From NCBI GenBank assembly GCA_026991575.1, contig JALXBF010000135.1, forward strand, positions 1 through 46,029: a stretch of DNA of 46,029 nucleotides, given 5' to 3'. Below the pieces are notes generated by a model. The model did no database searches. It had not been told where the DNA came from and saw nothing but the letters and a program-made list of their open reading frames with translations. Of the stretch, positions 18,717 to 33,313 are shown piece after piece (within the stretch, counting starts at the first letter, position 1; each line of letters begins with the position of its first letter). The stretch is from Planctomycetota bacterium (GTDB taxonomy: Bacteria; Planctomycetota; Planctomycetia; JALXBF01). The position numbers and the translations under genes were made by a program.

Positions 18717-19900
18717 ATCCCTTCCTGCCCACAGCAGCCGAACAACTAACCGGGCTCCTCTGGATCGCCTCACTCCAGGCTGCCTTGCTCGTACCGCTGG
18801 CTGCGGTCATAGCCCGCCTGTTCTGTGTCACCGCCTGGCAGCGAGCCACCGTCTGGAAGCTGTCCCTCTACGGCCTGCTGATCGTGCCGCTGGCCAGTTT
18901 CCTGCTACCACACTGTTACCTCTTTTACCATGGCCCGTGGGAGCCGTTGTCGTTCCCCGCGATGCGGTTGCCCGGCACCCGTATCCTGCCGGCCCGACTG
19001 CTGGCCGCTGTGGGGCTATCCCCATCGCGGTTCTACCAACTGGCCCTGGGCACATGGGCCACGGTGGCTGCCGTCCGGTTCCTGCAACTTGTGTATGGTT
19101 GGCGCAGGACCGTGGAACTGGTCCGGTCCGGCCGGGTGGTTGACGGCCGTTTGATCGAGCGGTTGCTGCAGTCAGATCGGTGTCGCTGGGTTCTGCGCGA
19201 CGTGGCCCTGGTAATCACCCCCGCGGTACCGATTGCTGCCTGCTGGCGATTCCAGCGGCCGATGGTGCTGCTGTCGCCGGCTGTCTACCGGCTTCCGCGG
19301 AATGAATTGCGCATGATCCTGGTCCATGAGCTGGCCCACCTGTGCCAGAACCACTCGCTTGCGCTGTTCGCATCGGCGATGTGCCGGATTCTGTTCTGGT
19401 TCCACCCGCTGGTGCGCTGGGCCGTGACGCAGTTTCAGCGGTGGGCCGAGCACGCATGTGATGAGTATGTGGTTGAGGAACTTGGCGATGTTCGCGGTTA
19501 CGCGACCCTGCTGGCACGGCTGTCACTGGGCCGTCGCGCTAGCGAAGCGGTTCCGCAGCCGGTCAGCAGCTTCACGCACGGGAATGTCCGGCCGATCGAA
19601 CGGATCAACTGGCTGCTAGCTCTGGATGGGTCGGGGGGGCCCCGCCAGCAGCACCGCTTGCTGCCGCAGCTCGGGATGGTGCTTCTGATGACCGCACAGA
19701 TTGTTCTGGCGGTCGTGCGTGTGGATCTCTACAATCTGTCGCTGCGCGAGGGGCGCGTCGTCTGGACTGCCTGGCCGCCCTTTACGGCCCAGCTGGCCGA
19801 CCTGGTGGGCGTTACCTTGCGGGATTACCCGCTGGATGCGTTTCGCCACGACGTCCGCGAGCGCACGGAGCGGCAGCTTCAGTTGCGCACCATGCCGTGA
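18713..19900 (+). CDS. M56-family membrane metallopeptidase (BlaR1-like, 395 aa)
   Basis: The protein has several N-terminal membrane segments (about residues 10-35, 45-65 and 100-125). The zinc peptidase motif HELAHLCQNH sits at about 204-213, with the downstream acidic ligand in ACDEYVVEEL (~245-255). A last hydrophobic segment (LGMVLLMTAQIVLAVVRV) lies at about 322-340. Only ~50 residues follow, so the large penicillin-binding sensor domain of staphylococcal BlaR1 is absent and its trigger is unknown. By analogy it would cleave the BlaI-type repressor encoded upstream. No beta-lactamase or PBP gene is adjacent; the next gene is a phosphatase-like protein. Confidence 0.93.
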   Translation: MNPFLPTAAEQLTGLLWIASLQAALLVPLAAVIARLFCVTAWQRATVWKLSLYGLLIVPLASFLLPHCYLFYHGPWEPLSFPAMRLPGTRILPARLLAAVGLSPSRFYQLALGTWATVAAVRFLQLVYGWRRTVELVRSGRVVDGRLIERLLQSDRCRWVLRDVALVITPAVPIAACWRFQRPMVLLSPAVYRLPRNELRMILVHELAHLCQNHSLALFASAMCRILFWFHPLVRWAVTQFQRWAEHACDEYVVEELGDVRGYATLLARLSLGRRASEAVPQPVSSFTHGNVRPIERINWLLALDGSGGPRQQHRLLPQLGMVLLMTAQIVLAVVRVDLYNLSLREGRVVWTAWPPFTAQLADLVGVTLRDYPLDAFRHDVRERTERQLQLRTMP

Positions 19901-19929
19901 TCGTGGCACGTCGGGCACGGAGGCAACCG

Positions 19930-20583
19930 ATGCGTCGTTTACCGACTCGAATCCGCCGCGCAGCCGCAGCTCTGCTCATGGCCGCGCTTGCGGGACTGGC
20001 CTACTGGGCATGGGACCATCGCCACTACTGGCTGCTTCATCACTTCCGTGAGGTGGTTCCGGGACGAGTCTACGCGGGCGGCTACCAGTATCCCGGACCG
20101 CTCCGCCGTATCGTGCAGCGCTACGGTATCCGCACGGTGCTCTGCCTGCGCGACGATCCCACCGACCCGAACGACCTCCTCGAACGCGCCGTACTCCGTG
20201 AATACGGCGTGCAGTTCGTGCGCGTCGTGATCCCGTTCAATCGACCGATCGCCGAGCAGCTGGCCGCGGTGCGCAAGGCGCTGGCGATCCTACGCAACCG
20301 CAAGAACGAGCCCGTGTTCGTTCACTGTTGGGGGGGACAGCATCGCACCGGTGTCATCGTCGGTGCCTACCGTGCCCGGTTCCAGCGCTGGCCCGAGGAG
20401 CGGATCTGGGCGGAATTCGAGCGTACCGGCGGCATGACCGCTGACCCACCGTACGCAGCCCGTCTGCTTGCAGCGTTTCTGAAGCGTGAGCGGCGCAGGC
20501 GTGCTCGTCTGGCCGCGCGCGAGCGCACCGTTCCGCCCGCCCATCACTCACCGCCTGCCTCAACCGGCCCATCCGTGCCGTAG
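19930..20583 (+). CDS. Tyrosine/dual-specificity phosphatase-like protein, membrane-anchored (217 aa)
   Basis: The active-site loop of cysteine-based phosphatases is present: VHCWGGQHRTGV, a C-x5-R motif at about residues 137-143. Upstream are GRVYAGGYQYPGPLRRIVQRYG and IRTVLCLRDDP, the usual beginning of this fold, with an Asp-rich RDDPTDPNDL loop. One hydrophobic segment near the N-terminus (AAALLMAALAGLAYWAW) suggests an anchor with the catalytic part outside the cytoplasm. I start at ATG 19930, which has GGAGG six bases upstream; a GTG at 19897 is in frame but has no such site. It lies 30 bases after the M56 gene, probably in the same operon. Its last 40 bases overlap the convergent PVC haem gene. 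Confidence 0.88.
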   Translation: MRRLPTRIRRAAAALLMAALAGLAYWAWDHRHYWLLHHFREVVPGRVYAGGYQYPGPLRRIVQRYGIRTVLCLRDDPTDPNDLLERAVLREYGVQFVRVVIPFNRPIAEQLAAVRKALAILRNRKNEPVFVHCWGGQHRTGVIVGAYRARFQRWPEERIWAEFERTGGMTADPPYAARLLAAFLKRERRRRARLAARERTVPPAHHSPPASTGPSVP

Positions 20584-23500
20584 AGCACGTACGAGAGCAT
20601 ATCGAGGATCTCGTCGCGCGTAGCCGTATTCAACAGTCCCTGCGGCATCAGGCTGGTACGCGATTCCATCCGTTCCTCGATCTGCTTCTCGTCCAACACC
20701 ACCGGCTCGGTCTGGCCGGTATCCAGCGGGTTCACGCGCAGCACGAGCTTGCCATCCCTCTCCTCCTTGACGATCCCCGTGTACAGCTTCCCCTCGGTGG
20801 TCAGAATCACTGTCGTCCGGTACTCATCCGCAATGCTCTTCGACGGCTCTATCACTGACTGAAGCACGTACAGCTTGTCGATTTCCCCTTTGCGGAACCG
20901 AGCCCGGATGCGTGCCAGCGGTGGCGCGATCTGTTGCTGTTGCTGGCCTTGCAACTCGTGGCACTTGGCGCACGCAAGCTGCTCGAACAGCTGCCGACCG
21001 CGCGCCAAGTCTCGGTTTGGCCCGATCTTGTCCAATGACACCTTCAGGTCCTCTACCGTCCACTCGCGCACGAACTTCCGTGCCGAAGGCTGCGGTGCCA
21101 CCGCAGTCTCCGCACCGGCCAGCCGCTGCGGCGGAACCGCATCCAGGTCCTCCACGACGTGCATGATCCCGTTCATGCGGCGCCAGTGGCCGGGGAAGGT
21201 GCACACGTACGGGTAGTCGTCCGGCTTGGACGGTGCCGTGAAGGTGATCCGGTCCTCCTGGCCGGGCTGCAACAGCTTCGTGTGATACAGCACCTCCCGC
21301 AGCCGCGGCACGAAACCGCGTTCGAACCCACGAGGATCGACCGCCAGGTCGTCTGAGGCCTTGCCGATCGTCAGCAGCGAACCCGGACGACCGATGACCA
21401 GGTTGTGCGGCATCACGTCGGTGTTCTGGAACACGATCTCCACCGGCTTGCCCGCCTCCACGTAGATCTCCCGCTTGTCGTACAGCAACATGTGGGGTAC
21501 CGGTCGGATCACGATCACACGGACGCCTAGGTCCGAGAGCCTGTTCCGGTACTGGCGAGCCGTGTCGGTGGGCAGGACGGAGGTAAGCTGGTAGCCGAGT
21601 TCCAGCGCGGCGCGAGCATCAGGCTGCGTGCGCCGTTTTGGCGGCATCGCTGCCAGCATCGCGACGATCCGGTCCAACAACGGTTGCACCTCCTGAATCG
21701 GCCAGCCTGAAGGCGCGATCCGCGCCAGTGCGCGATATGCCGTCTCGCGCAGCGGCGGCTGGTCGGTGAGCGAAGCCAGGAAGCGAAACACCTCTGCCGG
21801 CTCCTGTCCAGTGCTGACCAGCGCATCGATCGCCGCGCGGCGAAGCATCACGGCAGGCGGCCCGCCGAGTGCCCGGCGGTAGTCTCGGGCGCGCCTGCGT
21901 CCCAGCAACTCAGCCACCGGCTTGGGAAACTGTCCACGTGCGATCCGGAAGATCCGCTCATGCAACGCCGCCCGCTGTGAGGCTTCCGGAAACTGAGGCA
22001 CGGCACGCAGCACGGCATACAGCACGACCGGATCGCGGGTCGCCAACGACCAGGCCGGTTCCACGTCGCCGTCGGCAAGCACCAGGGCAATTGCTGCGAT
22101 CTGACGCGTGAACGCTCGCCGGCCGGTCGTAAGCAGGCGCTCGATCCGCCCGCGCTCGGCACGGAACGCTTCCCGATCGAATTGGATGGCATGCCGTTGT
22201 GCTGCGGCCTCGGGCGAGCCGGCGCCGGCCAGTAGCAGGTGTGCCAGGTCGTGCAGCACTTCTTCGGCTCGCTCAGCCTCCGACCCGTCCAGCCGCGCGA
22301 TGGCGCGGATCAGCTCGGCCGTCTCGGTCGATCGGTTCAGCTTCGCCAGCGCGGCTACGGCCTCCAGCCGATACTTCGGCGGCACCCCGGCACGGGACAG
22401 CAACGCTTCATAGACCAACCGTGTCCGCGGCAGCTTGATGAGCGTTGCGGTGGGCACGTTCTGAAGCAGGTACTGGATGCCGGCAATGTTATCGGAGGCG
22501 AACGGTCTTCCGGCCTCCACCGCCTCACGCCACCAGGGCTCCAGCTGCGTCATCGTCTCTCGAAGCGTGTACTCCAGATACTCATCCATCGGCTTCTTCA
22601 ACACCAGCAGCGCCACCTCCGCTGCTTGCGCACTGCGGAAGAAGCTGCACGCACGCACTGCCTCCAGCCGCACCAGCGGATGCTCATCCTGCACCATCCG
22701 TGCCAACTTGCCGAGCGGATCGGAGACCCGATCACGCCAATAGCAGAGCACTCGTGTCGCTGCGGCGCGGGCACGGTGGTCCGGTGAGCGAAGCATCCGC
22801 TCCAGGAGCGCTTCGTTGACCACGTTGTGCTGCGAATACAGCCACAACGCCTCCAGCAAGTGATGCTCGTAGTCCGGATCGTTCTTGTCCAAACGCTCGA
22901 TCCAGCGATCAGCTGCCGCGAGGACCTCCTGCGTGTCTCGACTGCTTAGCTCGATCCGAGCCCGATAGCGCACCCGATCCTCCGGCTCCTTCAGCAGGTC
23001 GAGCAACTCATCGATCGGGCGCCCTGCAATCGGCTTTGGCTTCAGCAACGGTCGACCGCGATAGATGACACGGTAGATTCGACCGTGCTCTTTGTCTCGG
23101 TTCGGATCGCGAATGTGGTGTTGCATATGGCCGATGAGCGGGTTCTGCCAATCACAGAAGTAGAGGGCCCCATCCGGTCCGATCTCCAAGTCCACCGGCC
23201 GGAAATTGGGATCGGTCGAATACAGGATCGGCTCCTGCTCGATGCCTTCGAAGCTGGCACCTTTGGGCCGAATCTTGTAGCGGAGGATTCCCTGGAAGCC
23301 GATCACGTTGGCCACCAGCAGATCCCCCTGGTATTCCTCGGGGAAGTGTCGGCTGGAGAGGATTTCGATGCCGGGGCACGGCCGTGTGCGGCGGCGGTAG
23401 AGCACCGGGGCCTTGCGGTGGCGCTTCGGGTAGTCCAGGTGACCGCTGAACAGGGTCGCATGGTAGGGAATGGCCCCGGTACCGTCGACCACGATGTCCT

Positions 23501-25160
23501 GGCCCCACCGGTCGAAGACGTGGCCGTGTGGATTGGCGAAGCCGTACGGCACGTACCGCTCCACACGCCACGTCCGCGGTTCGAACCGCCACACGCAGGC
23601 ATCCAGGTTCCGCACCACTCCGTAGGGGGACTCGATCTGCGAACGGTGGAAGATACCCTCCTGAAAGTACAGCGCCCCCTCAGGCCCGATCACGAAGCTG
23701 TTGGCCGTGTGGTGCGTGTCAGCTGTGTCCACGTGGCTGAGCACACGGATCCGCACGTCAGCCCGGTCATCGCCATCCGTGTCCTTCAGGAACAGCAGGT
23801 AAGGCCCTTCAGCCACGTAGACGCCGCCGTTCCAGAATTCAAATCCGGTCGGATTGTTGAGGTTATCCGCAAAGGCGGTGCACTTGTCCGCACGGCCATC
23901 GCCGTCGGTATCCTCTAGAATCAGCAACTTGTCGTTCATCGGGTCCTTAGGCTTCCAGTGCGGGTAGGTGGGCCAGACGGCGACCCAGAGCCGCCCCTTG
24001 GTATCGAACGCCATCTGCACCGGATTGACCAACTCGGGGAACATCTCCTCCGAGGCGAAGAGTTGGACCTCCAGGTTCTTGCCGGTCTTCATGCGTGAGA
24101 TCGCCTCTTCGCCCCCGAGAAACAGGTGCGTACCGTTGGGCCCTGGCCCAGGCTTGTTCGTTTTCACCTCGATGAACGGCGGCGTGTTGCTGTCGTCCAC
24201 CTGCAGGTCACCCCCCTGCGCCACCGCCCAGATCCGGCGGTCACGATTGGCACACATCACATCCAGGATCTCCATCTCCCGTTGCAGCACCTCGCGGTTG
24301 CTGATGCCATCGGTGTACTTCAGGTAGGAACGGCCGCCGTAAACGTTGTATCCGTCGGTGGTCCGGTAGCGATGGAACCAGTGGAAGTTCTTGTCCAGGA
24401 CAGCCTGACGAAGCCGCTCGAGCCGCACCCAGTCGATCGGGCGGGCTCTCGGTCCGAACAGTGCCCGATCAATGATTTCGGCAACCATGCGATTGCCCAG
24501 CTCGTTGAGATGACAGCCGTTGTAGGTAAGCGGGCGATCAAGCTTGCGGTAAAGCTCTAGCGTCGGTTCGAACAGATCGACGAACAGCACGCCACGCCGG
24601 CGACAGACCTCACGCATCGCTTGCGTGTACATCCGGAGCAGATGGTTGTGCTCGGTGCCGTCCGGCAGGTTCGGATCACCGAGGTTTTCGAAGGCGATGG
24701 GCGAGAAGAGCACCAGCCGCGGCGCCGACTTGCCGTTGTATTTCTGGCCCAACGTGTGCGTGAGGAACTGGCTCAGTTGTTCGCGAAACCGGTCAAGTCC
24801 TTCCTTGCCATCGAACGATTCCAGGAACCCGTAAAAGGCAAAGATCACGTCAGCCTTATGAAACGCCAGGTGCTCGTCCTGCGTGCCGAAGCCCTGGACT
24901 CGGATTCTCTCAGCCACCTCGTCACCGGCATAGCCCAGATTTCGGATGTACAAGCGGTGCCGCGGGAAGCGGTCATGAAGCAGGGTTTCTAAGTAGCCGA
25001 AGTGTTGCATCCGTTCGGCCAGCGCGTTGCCGATGAAGACGATGTGATCACCGGGCTTCAGTTCGAGTCGAGGTGCGGATCGGTCATCGGCATGGGCAAT
25101 GGGTGGGGTCTGCAACAGGAGGAGAGCAAACAGGGCCAGTGGCAACAGACGGCTAGGCAT
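20544..25160 (-). CDS. PVC-type haem-binding multidomain protein (1538 aa)
   Basis: A secreted redox protein with a cleavable signal peptide (LLPLALFALLLLQTPPIAHA). In order: an SGNH-hydrolase-like domain (~30-245); a beta-propeller of the PVC membrane-bound dehydrogenase type (~340-700) with calcium-loop-like EDTDGDGRADK and KDTDGDDRADV; a HEAT-rich helical region (~710-1180); a cupredoxin-like domain (~1230-1335) with possible copper ligands in MPHNL and VCTFPGHW; and a C-terminal cytochrome c domain with CAKCH (~1396) and a probable axial Met in MPQG. In the SGNH part the nucleophile motif GDS reads GNA and the usual D-x-x-H reads GCH, so esterase activity is unlikely. The family is typical of planctomycetes and verrucomicrobia; the substrate is unknown. 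GAGAGG precedes the ATG. Confidence 0.93.
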   Translation of the reverse strand: MPSRLLPLALFALLLLQTPPIAHADDRSAPRLELKPGDHIVFIGNALAERMQHFGYLETLLHDRFPRHRLYIRNLGYAGDEVAERIRVQGFGTQDEHLAFHKADVIFAFYGFLESFDGKEGLDRFREQLSQFLTHTLGQKYNGKSAPRLVLFSPIAFENLGDPNLPDGTEHNHLLRMYTQAMREVCRRRGVLFVDLFEPTLELYRKLDRPLTYNGCHLNELGNRMVAEIIDRALFGPRARPIDWVRLERLRQAVLDKNFHWFHRYRTTDGYNVYGGRSYLKYTDGISNREVLQREMEILDVMCANRDRRIWAVAQGGDLQVDDSNTPPFIEVKTNKPGPGPNGTHLFLGGEEAISRMKTGKNLEVQLFASEEMFPELVNPVQMAFDTKGRLWVAVWPTYPHWKPKDPMNDKLLILEDTDGDGRADKCTAFADNLNNPTGFEFWNGGVYVAEGPYLLFLKDTDGDDRADVRIRVLSHVDTADTHHTANSFVIGPEGALYFQEGIFHRSQIESPYGVVRNLDACVWRFEPRTWRVERYVPYGFANPHGHVFDRWGQDIVVDGTGAIPYHATLFSGHLDYPKRHRKAPVLYRRRTRPCPGIEILSSRHFPEEYQGDLLVANVIGFQGILRYKIRPKGASFEGIEQEPILYSTDPNFRPVDLEIGPDGALYFCDWQNPLIGHMQHHIRDPNRDKEHGRIYRVIYRGRPLLKPKPIAGRPIDELLDLLKEPEDRVRYRARIELSSRDTQEVLAAADRWIERLDKNDPDYEHHLLEALWLYSQHNVVNEALLERMLRSPDHRARAAATRVLCYWRDRVSDPLGKLARMVQDEHPLVRLEAVRACSFFRSAQAAEVALLVLKKPMDEYLEYTLRETMTQLEPWWREAVEAGRPFASDNIAGIQYLLQNVPTATLIKLPRTRLVYEALLSRAGVPPKYRLEAVAALAKLNRSTETAELIRAIARLDGSEAERAEEVLHDLAHLLLAGAGSPEAAAQRHAIQFDREAFRAERGRIERLLTTGRRAFTRQIAAIALVLADGDVEPAWSLATRDPVVLYAVLRAVPQFPEASQRAALHERIFRIARGQFPKPVAELLGRRRARDYRRALGGPPAVMLRRAAIDALVSTGQEPAEVFRFLASLTDQPPLRETAYRALARIAPSGWPIQEVQPLLDRIVAMLAAMPPKRRTQPDARAALELGYQLTSVLPTDTARQYRNRLSDLGVRVIVIRPVPHMLLYDKREIYVEAGKPVEIVFQNTDVMPHNLVIGRPGSLLTIGKASDDLAVDPRGFERGFVPRLREVLYHTKLLQPGQEDRITFTAPSKPDDYPYVCTFPGHWRRMNGIMHVVEDLDAVPPQRLAGAETAVAPQPSARKFVREWTVEDLKVSLDKIGPNRDLARGRQLFEQLACAKCHELQGQQQQQIAPPLARIRARFRKGEIDKLYVLQSVIEPSKSIADEYRTTVILTTEGKLYTGIVKEERDGKLVLRVNPLDTGQTEPVVLDEKQIEERMESRTSLMPQGLLNTATRDEILDMLSYVLYGTDGPVEAGGE

Positions 25161-27233: not shown

Positions 27234-29099
27234 TCACTCGCCAGCCGTTGCGACCATAGCCTTCTCGGTGCGGCCATTGCGCAGCGAGAACATCACCAGC
27301 CCCGTCTCTACCACGAGCCACACCGCCAGCAGCAGCACCGCTGCCGAGACCACGATGAGCGTGTAGTTGGGCTGTTCCGCTGCCAGAAAACCACGTAGCT
27401 GCAGGATCATCGCAGCGATGGTCACCGATAGCATCGCGACCATCGGAATCGCCGTGTACCAGACCGGTCGGCGACAACGCATCAGGTAGACCGTGACGGT
27501 CAAGAGCGTCAGGCCGGCAAGCAGTTGATTCGTTGTGCCGAACAGGGTCCAGAGGCTCTTACCCCCGCGAGAGAAGGCAAACCAGGCAATACCCGCCACC
27601 GCGACAACCGATCCGACGTACCGGTTGGCCAACTGAGGTAGCCCCACTGCACGCAGGATCTCTTCGACATTGAAGCGAAGCAGCCGCGTGGCCGAATCAA
27701 GCGTGGTCAGGGCGAAGGCCGTCACGGTGACGGCCAGGAACGAGGCGGCGTAGGTGTGCGGAATGCCCAGGTGGGCCACAAAATTTCCGGCGCCACGAAC
27801 GACGGCATCCAGCTGCACGGCCAGACCACCGCCTTTGATCGCCGCCCACGAAGCGTACTCGCCACCTTCCGTCCAGGCGGCAGCGCCCAGACCGGCCGCG
27901 CAGGCCAGGATGACCAGCACGGCCAACGCCCCTTCGGTCAGCATGCCACCGTAGCCGATGGCCACCGCATCGGTTTCTCGGTTCAGTTGCCGCACGGTGG
28001 TACCACTGGATACCAGGCTGTGGAAGCCGCTGACCGCGCCGCAGGCGATGGTGACAAACAGGAACGGCACGAACGGCGGCGCGTCACTGACTGCGCGAAT
28101 CGCGGGAGCGTCGATCCGAGCCGTGGGGGCCCCGATGACCGCCGCCACCAGGAGGCCGGCCAACATCAGGCCCAGGGCGGCGTAGAGCTGAAAACTGTTG
28201 AGATAATCGCGCGGTTGGAGCAGCAACCAGACAGGCAACACCGATGCGAGCAATCCGTAGCCCAGAAGCGCGTACATCCAGATTGTCTGGGCACGGTGCG
28301 CGGCCGCATCCACCGTTGCCACCGCCTCATCGGCGTCCACACCACCGGCCTCTTGCAGGGCAGCCATCTCGGCAGCCGCTCCATAGGGCGCCGCCAGCTT
28401 GCCCTGCTGCTCCAGCCGAGCCAACTGTTCCTGTACTCCCGCATCCTCGATGAACGCATGGTGCGTGGGCACCGGATACTCCACCCCGGCGACGATAAGC
28501 AGCACAAAGACGACCAGGCCAACGGCCGTTGCCCAGGCCAGTGGCACGCGGGCCTTGTAGGTAGCAAGACCAACCACCACGGCGACGATCATTAAGCCGA
28601 CCGAAGGCACAATGGCATCCGGGCGAAACCGCACGAACAGCGCGGCGATCGCGTTGACGAATGCGCCCATCGCCAGCGACATCAGGAAGAAGATCACCAC
28701 AAGGAATAGCAACCGGGCGCGGCGACCAACGATGTCGCGGCACGCGTCGCCAATCGATCGCGCCTCATGTCGAAGGCTAACCGTCAGGGCACCCAGGTCG
28801 TGAACGCCACCGATGAGAATCGACCCGAGGACAACCCATAAGATCGCAGGGACCCAGCCCCAGATGACCGCAATAGCTGGCCCCAGGATCGGGCCCAGTC
28901 CCGCGATCGAAGCAAAGTGGTGACCGAACAGCACCGGCACCGGTGTGGGCACAAAGTCGACGCCGTCACGGTATCGGTGGGCCGGCGTGGTGCGGTCGGC
29001 ATCCAGGCGGAAGACCCTCCGGCCCAGCAGCCTGCCGTAAGTGAGATGGGCCGCAATCAGAGCCACAAAGCAGATCACGGCAATCAGCGCTGCGTTCAT
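27234..29099 (-). CDS. cstA: Carbon starvation protein CstA-like transporter (621 aa)
   Basis: An integral membrane protein with more than a dozen hydrophobic segments. CstA-family members import peptides or pyruvate under carbon limitation. Diagnostic stretches are YRDGVDFVPTPVPVLFGHHF, SIAGLGPILGPAIAVIWGWV, SILIGGVHDLGALTVSLRHE and LVSSGTTVRQLNRETDAVAI. A hydrophilic insertion at about residues 240-295 (EDAGVQEQLARLEQQGKLAA and following) lies between membrane segments. I start at ATG 29099 (MNAALIAVICFVALIAAHLTYG) because upstream residues of the frame lack homology and overlap tatC. The Shine-Dalgarno sequence is weak. The gene follows tatC by 26 bases, so co-transcription is likely. Confidence 0.94.
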   Translation of the reverse strand: MNAALIAVICFVALIAAHLTYGRLLGRRVFRLDADRTTPAHRYRDGVDFVPTPVPVLFGHHFASIAGLGPILGPAIAVIWGWVPAILWVVLGSILIGGVHDLGALTVSLRHEARSIGDACRDIVGRRARLLFLVVIFFLMSLAMGAFVNAIAALFVRFRPDAIVPSVGLMIVAVVVGLATYKARVPLAWATAVGLVVFVLLIVAGVEYPVPTHHAFIEDAGVQEQLARLEQQGKLAAPYGAAAEMAALQEAGGVDADEAVATVDAAAHRAQTIWMYALLGYGLLASVLPVWLLLQPRDYLNSFQLYAALGLMLAGLLVAAVIGAPTARIDAPAIRAVSDAPPFVPFLFVTIACGAVSGFHSLVSSGTTVRQLNRETDAVAIGYGGMLTEGALAVLVILACAAGLGAAAWTEGGEYASWAAIKGGGLAVQLDAVVRGAGNFVAHLGIPHTYAASFLAVTVTAFALTTLDSATRLLRFNVEEILRAVGLPQLANRYVGSVVAVAGIAWFAFSRGGKSLWTLFGTTNQLLAGLTLLTVTVYLMRCRRPVWYTAIPMVAMLSVTIAAMILQLRGFLAAEQPNYTLIVVSAAVLLLAVWLVVETGLVMFSLRNGRTEKAMVATAGE

Positions 29100-29125
29100 G
29101 GCAGTCACCGAGCACTGCTGCGTAG

Positions 29126-30430
29126 TTACTGTGAAGCACCCGCGGGCTTTTCCCGTTGGGCTCGCGGTACCGCTGCCGGACGGTACCAGCGGCACAGCTG
29201 AATGCCCAATTCGTAGAGCGCCAGGGCCGGCAGCATCATCGCCAGCATGCTGCCCGGATCTGGTGGCGTCAGCATCATCGACAAGAACGCGATCACCAGG
29301 ATGGCATGCCGCCGCTTCGTACGATAGTCATCCACCGTGAAGATGCCGACGCGCTCTAGTGCTAGCATAACGAGCGGAAGCTCAAAACTCAGCCCGAACA
29401 TCACCGGCAGCATCGTGGCGAAGCCCATCCATTCCGACAGGCGAATCTGCGGCTTGATCCCGATCCACCGGTTAAACGACAGCAGGAAGTTCAGGATCAC
29501 CGGTAGCACGATAAAGAAGCAGAACAGGACGCCCGCCAGAAACAGCCCGGTGCTAAAAGGCAGGAACCGATACACGACCCGCCGCTCATACGAGTAGAGC
29601 CCTGCCGCCACAAACGACCAGATCTGATAGAAGATCCAGGGGGACGTCAGGACGATGCCCACGACGAAGCTGGCTTTCAGGTAGGCCATGATCGTCTCGT
29701 ACGGGCCCAGGCTGACGATGGCCGAATCCAGGTCGGGCAAGCTGCCGGCGGCTTCCAACGTGACCTTTGGCGTCCACATCGGAAGCTGCAGGTACTTCTC
29801 GTTCAGCTCGCTCAGCGGAACCTCCCGCTCAACGACCGGCGGCTGGATCGGCTCCTCCTGCCGCTGGGCGTCCGGTTGCAGACCGGCCCAGTCCAACAGC
29901 GGCTGATACCAGGGCCTGCTGGCCGCGTCCCGGCCGAAGCCATTGCTGCTCTGCGTTCCCGAACCCGCCGAAGTCGACGTGGCTGGATCCGGCGTGGGCT
30001 GCCGCTGTGCGTTGCCCGGCGTGGAATTCGTTCCCCCGGCGTCGGTGCTCTCGGCTGCCGCCGGATCAGGTTCGTCGGTGTCGGCGGTTGCCCGCTCGGC
30101 AAGCGCTTCGCGGAGCAGGGTGCGGAACTGCTCGCGATCGATGTACGCGGGGATCTGAACCAGCGGGACCGGTTCGCCCCGCCGCACCTGCTCCTGGTAC
30201 TGCCGTTGCCGGGCAAGCAGGTCCTCCTGGTAGTAGGCCAGCAGCGCTTCGCGCGCCGGCTCACTCATGTAGCGGACCACGGCGCCGCCAAGGAACAGGC
30301 CGACGATCACGCCGGGAACGAGGCCGACCAGAGCGCGGATGAGGTGGACGCGCAGGTCCTCCAGATGCTCCGCAAACGTCATGCGGACCATCTGGGCTTC
30401 TTCTTCAAAGAGATCAACGTCGTGGACCAC
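29126..30430 (-). CDS. tatC: Twin-arginine translocase subunit TatC with long periplasmic insertion (434 aa)
   Basis: TatC is the membrane receptor that binds twin-arginine signal peptides. The cytoplasmic N-terminus (TFAEHLEDLRVHLIRAL) and the first membrane segment are typical. Later motifs LGPYETIMAYLKASF, SPWIFYQIWSFVAAGLY, YERR and FGLSFELPLVM are all present. The first periplasmic loop is expanded to about 175 residues (~60-235), rich in Glu/Gln, Ser, Thr and Pro in its middle; ordinary TatC has ~45 there. I use GTG 30430, preceded by GGGGAGAG, because the DVDLFEE start that follows resembles planctomycete TatC proteins. No tatA/tatB is nearby. The Tat-signal protein at 34964-36001 would be a client. 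Confidence 0.93.
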   Translation of the reverse strand: MVHDVDLFEEEAQMVRMTFAEHLEDLRVHLIRALVGLVPGVIVGLFLGGAVVRYMSEPAREALLAYYQEDLLARQRQYQEQVRRGEPVPLVQIPAYIDREQFRTLLREALAERATADTDEPDPAAAESTDAGGTNSTPGNAQRQPTPDPATSTSAGSGTQSSNGFGRDAASRPWYQPLLDWAGLQPDAQRQEEPIQPPVVEREVPLSELNEKYLQLPMWTPKVTLEAAGSLPDLDSAIVSLGPYETIMAYLKASFVVGIVLTSPWIFYQIWSFVAAGLYSYERRVVYRFLPFSTGLFLAGVLFCFFIVLPVILNFLLSFNRWIGIKPQIRLSEWMGFATMLPVMFGLSFELPLVMLALERVGIFTVDDYRTKRRHAILVIAFLSMMLTPPDPGSMLAMMLPALALYELGIQLCRWYRPAAVPRAQREKPAGASQ

Positions 30431-30665
30431 TCGGCACTCTCCCCGCAGCCTGCCCGGGACACAGGTGGCGCGTTTCGTCAGCAATTGTATGAGTGCCTGC
30501 TGTGGCCACCGTTGGCGCAATAGGCCGGCACGGCCAGCGGAGCACAGCCGCCTACCCCCCGTGAGGCCGCGTACGGCTCCGTCCGCGGGTGCTCGACCGA
30601 AGTGATCCCAACGGCATCCGAACAAGCATGCCTGCAGTCCTGGTTCGACGACCCCTACGCAGTAA

Positions 30666-30757: not shown

Positions 30758-33313
30758 TCAGCGACCGGCGATACCGAGCATCTCGGCCAAGACCGGGGCG
30801 TACTTGACGATCACGCCGGCAAAAACGACCGCCACCATGCTCATCAGCTTGATCAGAATGTTCAGCGACGGCCCTGAGGTGTCCTTGAACGGATCGCCCA
30901 CCGTGTCTCCGACGACGGCCGCCTTGTGCGCTTCGGACCCTTTGCCGCCGTAGTTACCTTCCTCTATGTACTTCTTGGCATTGTCCCAGGAGCCGCCGGC
31001 ATTGGCCATGAAAATCGCGACGGCAAACCCGGCGGTCAGTGCGCCGGCCAACAGTCCCATGATGCCCCCAACACCGAGCACCATACCGACGGCCACCGGC
31101 GCGGCGACTGCCAGCAGTGACGGGAAGATCATTTCTCGCTGTGCTCCGGCGGTCGCAATGCTGACGCAGCGTGCGTAATCCGCTTTGGCGTTCGGGTCGG
31201 ACAGCAGGTTCAGCTCGCGGAACTGACGGCGTACTTCCTCGACCATCTGAGCGGCCGCTCGGCCGACGGCCTGCATGGTCAGTCCGCTGAAGACGAACAC
31301 CATGAGCACGCCGCAGAACGCGCCCACCAGCACCTTCGGATTCATGAGGTTGACGCGGTAGAAGTCCATGAAATCGGCCAACGTTGCCTGCTTCACATCC
31401 ACCAGGTGCACGATGATCGGAGCATCGTCCCCTCCGGCCACGCTGGCGGCCACGTCCTCCGCCGTGGCAGGCACCAGCCGATCCTCGGCGGTGAACTTGT
31501 ACGCGGTCCCGCGTGACACCTCGATGAACGCAACGTGCTGGAACTTACCGTGGCGTTCGTTCGGTCGTGCCTTGCGCACGTACTTGCCGTATCCGATCGG
31601 CGTGACCCAGTCGGTCCCGACCCGATCGGCGTGAGTGCTGACAAAGGTGGCCGCTTCCCGTTCGATTCCGACGCGAACCTCCTCGACAAAGGCAGCAAGC
31701 AGGGCCAGGGCAGTGAGTGCGGCCGAGCCGATGGCGAACCCCTTGCCCGTGGCTGCCGTCGTGTTACCGAGCGAATCGAGCGCGTCGGTCCGGCGGCGGA
31801 CGTACGGCGGCTGCTCGGTCATCTGAGCGTTACCGCCCGCGTTGTCGGCCACGGGACCGTATGCGTCCGTGGCAAGCGTGATACCAAGCGTCGAAAGCAT
31901 ACCGACGGCGGCGAAGCCCACACCGTAGAGCCCAAGCGCCGGGTTCCCGAACCCACCGGCCAGACCGTAAGCGGCCAGCGTGGCCACGCCGACCACCGCC
32001 AGCGCACCCCAGGTGCTGAGCATGCCGAGTGCGACGCCGCCAATGATGGTCGTAGCTGGCCCGGTGAGACACTGGCTGGCGAGCCAGCGCGTCGGCTTGT
32101 ACTCGGCCGACGTGTAATACTCGGTCAGCCACCCGATTAGCACGCCGGCGGCCAGCCCGGTGACAATCGCGCCGTACACCCTTGGCCACAACGCCACCCC
32201 GTTCAGCTCGACACCGGACAGGGCAAGGTACAAGACGAAAGCGGCGGCCACCGCGAATGCGGCACTGGCTCCCCAGACTCCCTTCCGCAGGGCCCACAGT
32301 AACTGCCGCTGCAGCGACTCGTCTTCTTCGTCCTGGCCCTCCTGCTCGTCCGTGCGCACGGCGTAGATGCCCACGATCGATAGCGCGATGCCAATGGCGG
32401 CCAGCAGCATCGGGGCACAGACCAGTTGCACCTGGGTGCCGATGTCGGTGATGCCGATGAAGACCGCAGCCGACGCTCCGAGTGCAGCCGTGGCCAGGAT
32501 CGAACCGCAGTAGCTCTCGTACAGGTCCGCCCCCATGCCCGCAACGTCGCCAACGTTGTCACCGACGTTGTCGGCGATCACGGCCGGGTTACGCGGGTCG
32601 TCTTCGGGAATGCCCGCCTCGGTCTTACCAACCAAGTCCGCGCCCACGTCCGCTGACTTCGTGTAGATACCGCCGCCAACGCGGGCGAACAGCGCCTGAG
32701 TGCTGGCCCCCATCCCGAAGCACAGCATCACAACGGTGATCTCTTCGAGGCTCATCGGCTCGATGAGTCCGGTTGCCGGCAAGATCCAGGCCAGCAGGAG
32801 GAACCAACCGGTAATGTCCAGGAGACCGAGGCCTACGACGACCAGCCCCATGACAGCCCCGGCACGAAACGCGACCTGGAGGCCCCGGTTCAGCGACTCT
32901 TTCGCCGCTTGTGCCGTGCGGTTCGACGCCTGGGTGGCCGTGTTCATGCCGAAGAAGCCAGCCAAACCGCTGAAGAACCCCCCCGTCAGGAAGGCGAACG
33001 GCACCAGTGTGTGCTGCTGCTTCAAGCCGAACGCCTGGAACGCAAGCAGGAGCACGAGTACGACGAATACGACCGCGACGACCGCGTACTGACGCTTCAG
33101 GTAAGCGAACGCACCCTCGCGGACATAGGCCGCGATCTGCTGCATCCGCTCGTCGCCCGGATCCTGCTCCAGGACCTCGCGATAGAACAGATAGGCGAAC
33201 ACCAGGGCAAGAATGGAGCCCAACGGGGCCAGCCACCACCACCACGGGATCGGAATCTGCGGTGCTTCGTTGGCCGCCTGCGCAAGAAGCGTCCAGAACG
33301 CCGTTTGGCTCAC
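30758..33313 (-). CDS. hppA: Membrane-bound ion-pumping pyrophosphatase (851 aa)
   Basis: It couples pyrophosphate hydrolysis to H+ (or Na+) transport across the membrane. The substrate loops are intact: [39 protein letters not shown], and near the end [20 protein letters not shown]. The [18 protein letters not shown] segment has Ala and Gly where K+-independent enzymes have Lys and Thr, so K+ dependence is expected. The length exceeds the usual ~680-720 because of an extra hydrophilic region at about residues 540-655 ([20 protein letters not shown] and following) and a charged loop near 325-345 ([16 protein letters not shown]). Whether H+ or Na+ is pumped cannot be read safely. The GTG start has GGGAGG upstream. 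It is a single-gene unit, divergent from the SLC1 carrier. Confidence 0.95.

Follow-up and report, generated by a model that had tools for sequence, protein, structure and literature searches.

A planctomycete fusion of a nucleophile-less SGNH domain with a TIGR02604 propeller and a copper and haem end

The PVC-type heme-binding CxxCH proteins (TIGR02604/DUF7133) combine a propeller, HEAT repeats and a C-terminal CxxCH domain. We analysed a protein of this kind encoded in Planctomycetota bacterium DNA (GenBank assembly GCA_026991575.1, contig JALXBF010000135.1), within a window that comprises the whole stretch of 46,029 nucleotides. The gene lies on the minus strand at positions 20544-25160, starts with ATG and is intact over 1538 amino acids. 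The encoded protein shares the layout of the family, in contrast to which it adds an N-terminal SGNH domain that has lost its nucleophile, and a copper domain. It scores 228 bits against the NCBIfam model TIGR02604 (curated cut-off 122.2). TIGR02603 is slightly missed (65.6 bits, cut-off 68.15), although the CxxCH motif and a Met are present and Pfam Cytochrom_C is above its cut-off.

Several described proteins resemble parts of this fusion. The metagenomic Lac161_ORF7, as described, draws its propeller, HEAT and haem domains from these same families, whereas it is reported as a beta-galactosidase and no SGNH or copper domain figures in its description (PMC5342196). The AA12 pyranose dehydrogenase CcPDH (6jt5) shares the six-blade fold, by alignment the His and Asn of the pyrroloquinoline quinone (PQQ) site, and a joined cytochrome domain; in contrast, it is fungal, carries a b-type AA8 cytochrome and the full set of PQQ residues, and is described without a copper or SGNH domain (PMC6881789). 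The copper domain has the fold and His-Cys-His-Met ligands of auracyanin and azurin, but here it is part of a larger protein and does not reach the azurin equivalog TIGR02695 (32.6 bits, cut-off 105.1). The cytochrome c domain is similar in sequence to Kustd1711 (7zs0), described as a stand-alone diheme carrier (PMC11791136). Finally, the SGNH fold is that of the acetylxylan esterase Axe2 and of BT4096 (7br2), from which our protein differs in having Ala for the nucleophile and Asn for the Block V Asp. The target is a little-studied variant of a known, widespread planctomycete protein family and no new kind of system. Our literature searches found no paper on the SGNH-TIGR02604 fusion, its lost nucleophile or its exchangeable redox end.

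From the N to the C terminus, the protein runs from a signal-peptide-like stretch through an SGNH fold, a six-blade propeller, HEAT repeats and a type-1 copper domain to a cytochrome c domain, as follows (coordinates of the window, all on the minus strand).

20544-25160, minus: the complete open reading frame (ORF).
25086..25160, minus: signal-peptide-like N terminus, residues 1-25, a hydrophobic stretch followed by A-H-A-D, read in the translation.
24144..25088, minus: SGNH-fold domain with a conserved C-terminal extension, about residues 25-339, from Lipase_GDSL_2, Foldseek and the alignment with 131 fusion relatives.
23013..24110, minus: six-blade TIGR02604/DUF7133 propeller, about residues 351-716, from Pfam, NCBIfam, structural comparison and hhalign.
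21711..23012, minus: HEAT-repeat region, about residues 717-1150, from the HEAT_2 match.
21147..21494, minus: type-1 (blue) copper domain, about residues 1223-1338, from Copper-bind, the auracyanin fold and ligand conservation.
20580..21011, minus: cytochrome c domain, about residues 1384-1527, from Cytochrom_C, similarity to Kustd1711 and ligand conservation.

All five domains that the original prediction had placed on one polypeptide are present by Pfam, NCBIfam and translation. The Pfam matches were DUF7133 (226.9 bits, cut-off 27), HEAT_2 (46.7 bits, cut-off 27.7, residues 783-861), Copper-bind (39.6 bits, cut-off 21.2), Lipase_GDSL_2 (37 bits, cut-off 32.9, aligned only from profile position 21 onward) and Cytochrom_C (27.4 bits, cut-off 21.3). 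The structure prediction proposed with it was carried out with AlphaFold2, and the models of residues 25-716 (pLDDT 90.9, pTM 0.89) and 1150-1538 (pLDDT 88.8, pTM 0.71) show the folds of an SGNH domain, a propeller and an auracyanin-like cupredoxin.

To place the protein among its relatives we used 60 regions chosen by hand across length classes from the list of SGNH-domain matches, and 80 named loci, which are the best 80 of 537 and so biased toward close relatives. Together these gave 131 fusion relatives, of which 126 are distinct, the two sets having five sequences in common; ORF starts were assigned by rule. One alignment (A2) held the target and 67 of 77 candidate rows, and another (A3) the target and 49 of 57 rows, the latter containing only relatives with the copper-haem region. 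The SGNH domain was matched in 55 of 59 relative genomes, that of the target included, all of the same class; the named best matches were mostly labelled Planctomycetota or families thereof, and 18 of 119 genomes drawn from the phylum matched at E <= 1e-30. Within its own genome the target alone carries the SGNH domain in a strict search, another search counting a second, weaker match. TIGR02604 matches 29 stretches there, spread over 23 open frames.

The first domain adopts an SGNH fold, matching Axe2 in Foldseek (E 8.3e-9, TMt 0.73). Canonical SGNH enzymes carry a Ser in Block I, a Gly in Block II, an Asn in Block III and Asp-x-x-His in Block V (PMC9487903). In the target, Block I is G44-N45-A46, which bears out the predicted GNA in place of GDS and leaves the domain with no catalytic Ser. 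Block II (R73-N74-L-G76-Y-A-G79-D80) retains the Gly at G76 and G79, Block III (G111-F-L113-E114-S115) has Leu113 at the Asn position, a further loss that the original prediction had not noted, and Block V (T212-Y-N214-G-C-H217) keeps the His and lacks the Asp, again as had been read from the gene. Aligning the catalytic positions across the family, the check suggested at the outset, showed the nucleophile position to be Thr in 101 of the 131 relatives, Gly in 12, Ala in 8, Ser in 5, Val in 3, and Met and Glu in one each. The entropy of this column ranks at 0.42 among 320 columns, and the pocket residues next to it belong to the most conserved ones. G44, R73, D80, G111, E114, P154 and G215 are invariant (131/131), and N45 (129/131), N214 (127/131), H217 (126/131) and E158 (130/131) nearly so. 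The Block V Asp is present in only three of the 131. At position 113, 125 relatives have Asn and six Gly; Leu occurs in the target only (1/132).

The loss of the nucleophile, as read from these alignments, belongs to the family, beyond the single gene. We reject a recently broken esterase in the target alone, as 126 of 131 sampled fusion relatives lack the Ser, and so do all nine sampled propeller-less proteins. These nine proteins (310-423 residues) have Thr (eight) or Ala (one) at the Ser position; hence the loss does not depend on the fusion. As controls we took the two other GDSL proteins encoded in this genome. Both keep canonical motifs (GDS with ND and DAVH; GDS with DGVH), and the defect is therefore specific to this family. 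Five relatives (L062, L065, L067, L068 and L070) read GNS, with Asn replacing the Block V Asp, and may be active esterases. They fall inside one clade of seven rows, in a tree rooted with a distant outgroup, which leaves the root uncertain.

Activity is known in SGNH enzymes that have a Ser-His dyad and no Block V Asp, and in others that lack the Block III Asn (PMC9487903). Consequently, of these changes it is the missing nucleophile alone that speaks for a loss of esterase activity. The proposal that this domain may bind a sugar or ester rather than cut it holds in part: the absence of the Ser, the lack of any invariant replacement and the conserved pocket favour it, whereas the loss of the Block V Asp, which had been offered in its support, is by itself no proof of a dead enzyme. 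A conserved pocket around the lost nucleophile suggests binding more than ester cleavage, a pattern that would suit a pocket that abandoned its chemistry and was retained to bind a ligand.

The propeller resembles sugar dehydrogenases. In a structural comparison (VIA-align) the top match was Trichoderma AA12 (6i1q; Z 28.7, rmsd 2.7, 288 residues), followed by a PQQ-dependent sugar dehydrogenase (3a9g; Z 28.2) and the PQQ domain of the Coprinopsis pyranose dehydrogenase (Z 27.4), with other aldose and glucose dehydrogenases at Z 24.6-26.3. The first eleven rows are all AA12 or PQQ-type sugar dehydrogenases (Z 24.6-28.7), with six-blade lactonases behind them at Z about 23.5. Profile comparison by hhalign supports the propeller as a distant homologue of these enzymes. 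With a query set of 17 rows (the target, 14 paralogs from its own genome and two of nine further relatives) and 17 of 25 GSDH loci after cleaning, the broad TIGR02604 set aligned with the glucose/sorbosone dehydrogenase family (GSDH) at Prob 98.6 and E 6.5e-16 over 284 columns. In this comparison the position of the catalytic His in sugar dehydrogenases corresponds to H484, the Arg-Asn pair of the PQQ site to A542-N543, with the Asn retained, and one C-terminal PQQ Arg to R654; the correspondence of motifs to sGDH numbering is in part provisional. The PQQ-site reference residues were taken from PMC6881789. On these residues PQQ binding by the propeller is possible. A search for pqqC matched none of 58 genomes and has no weight either way, as no control was matched either. 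Direct sequence matches of the propeller to the Protein Data Bank (PDB) gave nothing besides a marginal 22-residue match to teneurin, and a search for the AA12 family in 24 genomes gave four weak partial matches.

The metal ligands at the C-terminal end are complete. The copper ligands H1252, C1320, H1325 and M1329, and the haem motif C1397-x-x-C1400-H1401 with the likely distal M1505, are invariant in all 50 rows of A3. The copper domain superimposes on auracyanin (6kol) with Z 20.6 and an rmsd of 1.4 Angstrom over 118 residues, so that both fold and His-Cys-His-Met ligands mark it as type-1, by sequence and model. The cytochrome c domain matches Kustd1711 at E 3.3e-10, and 77 residues separate the copper Cys ligand from the first haem Cys. 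Among 51 fusion relatives the redox end consists of copper and haem in 20, two haems in nine, one haem in 12 and neither in ten. The 65 complete named relatives have copper and haem in 55, haem only in three, a copper motif only in one and none in six. Locus L121 has a gene for a 912-residue SGNH-propeller protein, and 128 bp downstream of it the HEAT-cupredoxin half lies as a gene of its own. That copper can be replaced by haem, and that a split form exists, speaks for an electron outlet serving the propeller, and the relatives without a redox motif indicate that this outlet can be absent or separate. The built-in electron path that the original prediction had drawn from the adjoining copper and haem modules is accordingly plausible on motifs and models. 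In a further case (L145:3790-8694) two ORFs lie two bases apart, the first SGNH-propeller and the second PA14-copper-haem, which may reflect a frameshift, a sequencing error or a true split.

Carbohydrate-type accessory domains occur around this architecture. An F5/8-type-C domain was found in four relatives (L021, L066, L094 and L101), and PA14 in one relative (L033) and in the ORF downstream of L145; in several relatives the F5/8-type-C or PA14 domain sits between the HEAT and redox domains. By Pfam, neither is found in the target, nor in L104, L115, L125 or L136. One 1984-residue relative (L101:8951-14902) has a ThuA (trehalose utilisation) stretch ahead of the SGNH domain, a weak match at 30.3 bits that lies below the cut-off of 33.4. 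In freshwater Verrucomicrobia, some genes with planctomycete-specific cytochrome domains are described as also encoding carbohydrate-binding modules (PMC5615132), a related theme carried by domain families that, as described there, differ from those of the target.

We tentatively favour, at somewhat under an even chance, a secreted and probably periplasmic carbohydrate oxidoreductase of the TIGR02604 family with a built-in copper/haem outlet that can be exchanged and a binding domain derived from an SGNH fold. The analysis shows the domain content, the predicted folds, the loss of the nucleophile and the intact metal ligands; from these we infer the location, the substrate class, the cofactor, the electron flow and ligand binding by the SGNH pocket. 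The pseudo-esterase pocket would most likely hold or position a glycan, acylated or decorated in some other way, for the propeller, which as the likely catalytic part would oxidise it. Electrons would then leave through the auracyanin-like copper domain and the His/Met cytochrome c towards the respiratory chain.

A number of observations weigh against this proposal. Leu113 suggests drift in this copy of the SGNH domain, and ten of 51 fusion relatives have neither a haem nor a copper motif. Ranked by Foldseek E-value, SMP30/lactonase-type propellers (5.3e-9) come ahead of the PQQ domain 6jt5 (2.8e-8). GSDH (PF07995) reaches 14.4 bits in the target, below the cut-off of 25, and the propellers of the SGNH fusions alone gave Prob 6-11 against a GSDH profile whose alignments contained wrong frames. 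Ala542 takes the place of the Arg in the PQQ-site pair, and the other C-terminal Arg has no counterpart, so PQQ may not bind. Lastly, no neighbouring gene is conserved across 52 named loci.

The SGNH domain might instead be a mere structural platform for the propeller and hold no ligand. The absent nucleophile would suit such a role, as would Leu113 in the target, and the C-terminal extension of the domain (about residues 250-336) has many invariant residues that could form a fixed interface. However, the pocket residues E114, N214, H217 and D80 are conserved, and the nine propeller-less proteins mostly share the pocket residues along with the same relaxed nucleophile site. We regard a pure platform as rather improbable.

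That the propeller is a glycoside hydrolase, with copper and haem domains that serve another purpose or dock it to redox partners, is slightly less credible still, and we consider it unlikely, although it is the main rival to the oxidoreductase. It also counts against a carbohydrate oxidoreductase that purified Lac161_ORF7, a TIGR02604-HEAT-cytochrome c protein, is reported to hydrolyse lactose with a Km of 1.8 mM (PMC5342196). This is, however, a single report, on a protein described without an SGNH or copper domain. Moreover, the nearest solved folds of our propeller by Z are sugar dehydrogenases, although six-blade lactonases come close behind. Catalysis by the SGNH domain through other chemistry, such as a Thr at position 46 or the acid E114 with H217, is very unlikely: Thr predominates in the relatives, GNS recurs within one clade and E114 is invariant, but position 46 is Ala in the target and Gly, Ala, Val, Met or Glu in 25 of 131, and H217 is replaced in five.

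The target stands by itself among genes unrelated to it, which gave no clue to a substrate or function among the window neighbours tested (DAHP synthase, AlgH-like, tyrosine phosphatase, M56 peptidase, DUF1559, CstA, TatC and H+-pyrophosphatase). Two sequence clusters recur most often around the 52 named loci, at 12 and 11 of them and in scattered positions; judging by sequence, they are probably DUF1501 and PSCyt1/PSD1 proteins. Both are abundant in planctomycetes. The target and a tyrosine-phosphatase-like gene (19897-20583, plus strand) overlap tail to tail at their 3' ends by 40 bases (20544-20583). Also nearby, all on the minus strand, are a CstA-like carbon starvation protein (27234-29195, match 34-433), a TatC homologue (29126-30625) and an H+-pyrophosphatase (30758-33313). 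The Pfam match of the TatC homologue begins at residue 301 (profile 45-208 of 208); its called TTG start may be wrong, or it may have a long N-terminal extension.

Extended to the family, the proposal would describe a widespread planctomycete class of carbohydrate oxidoreductases in which an esterase fold has lost its nucleophile and become a substrate-reading domain for a sugar-dehydrogenase-like propeller, with a swappable copper/haem outlet and possibly a cofactor other than PQQ; we put this forward as a doubtful generalisation. If true, A46, E114, N214 and H217 would be the residues to probe in the SGNH fusion, which would itself offer a clear example from nature of an esterase fold put to use in binding. 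TIGR02604 proteins are numerous in planctomycetes; if the proposal is true, they would be electron-wired sugar oxidoreductases.

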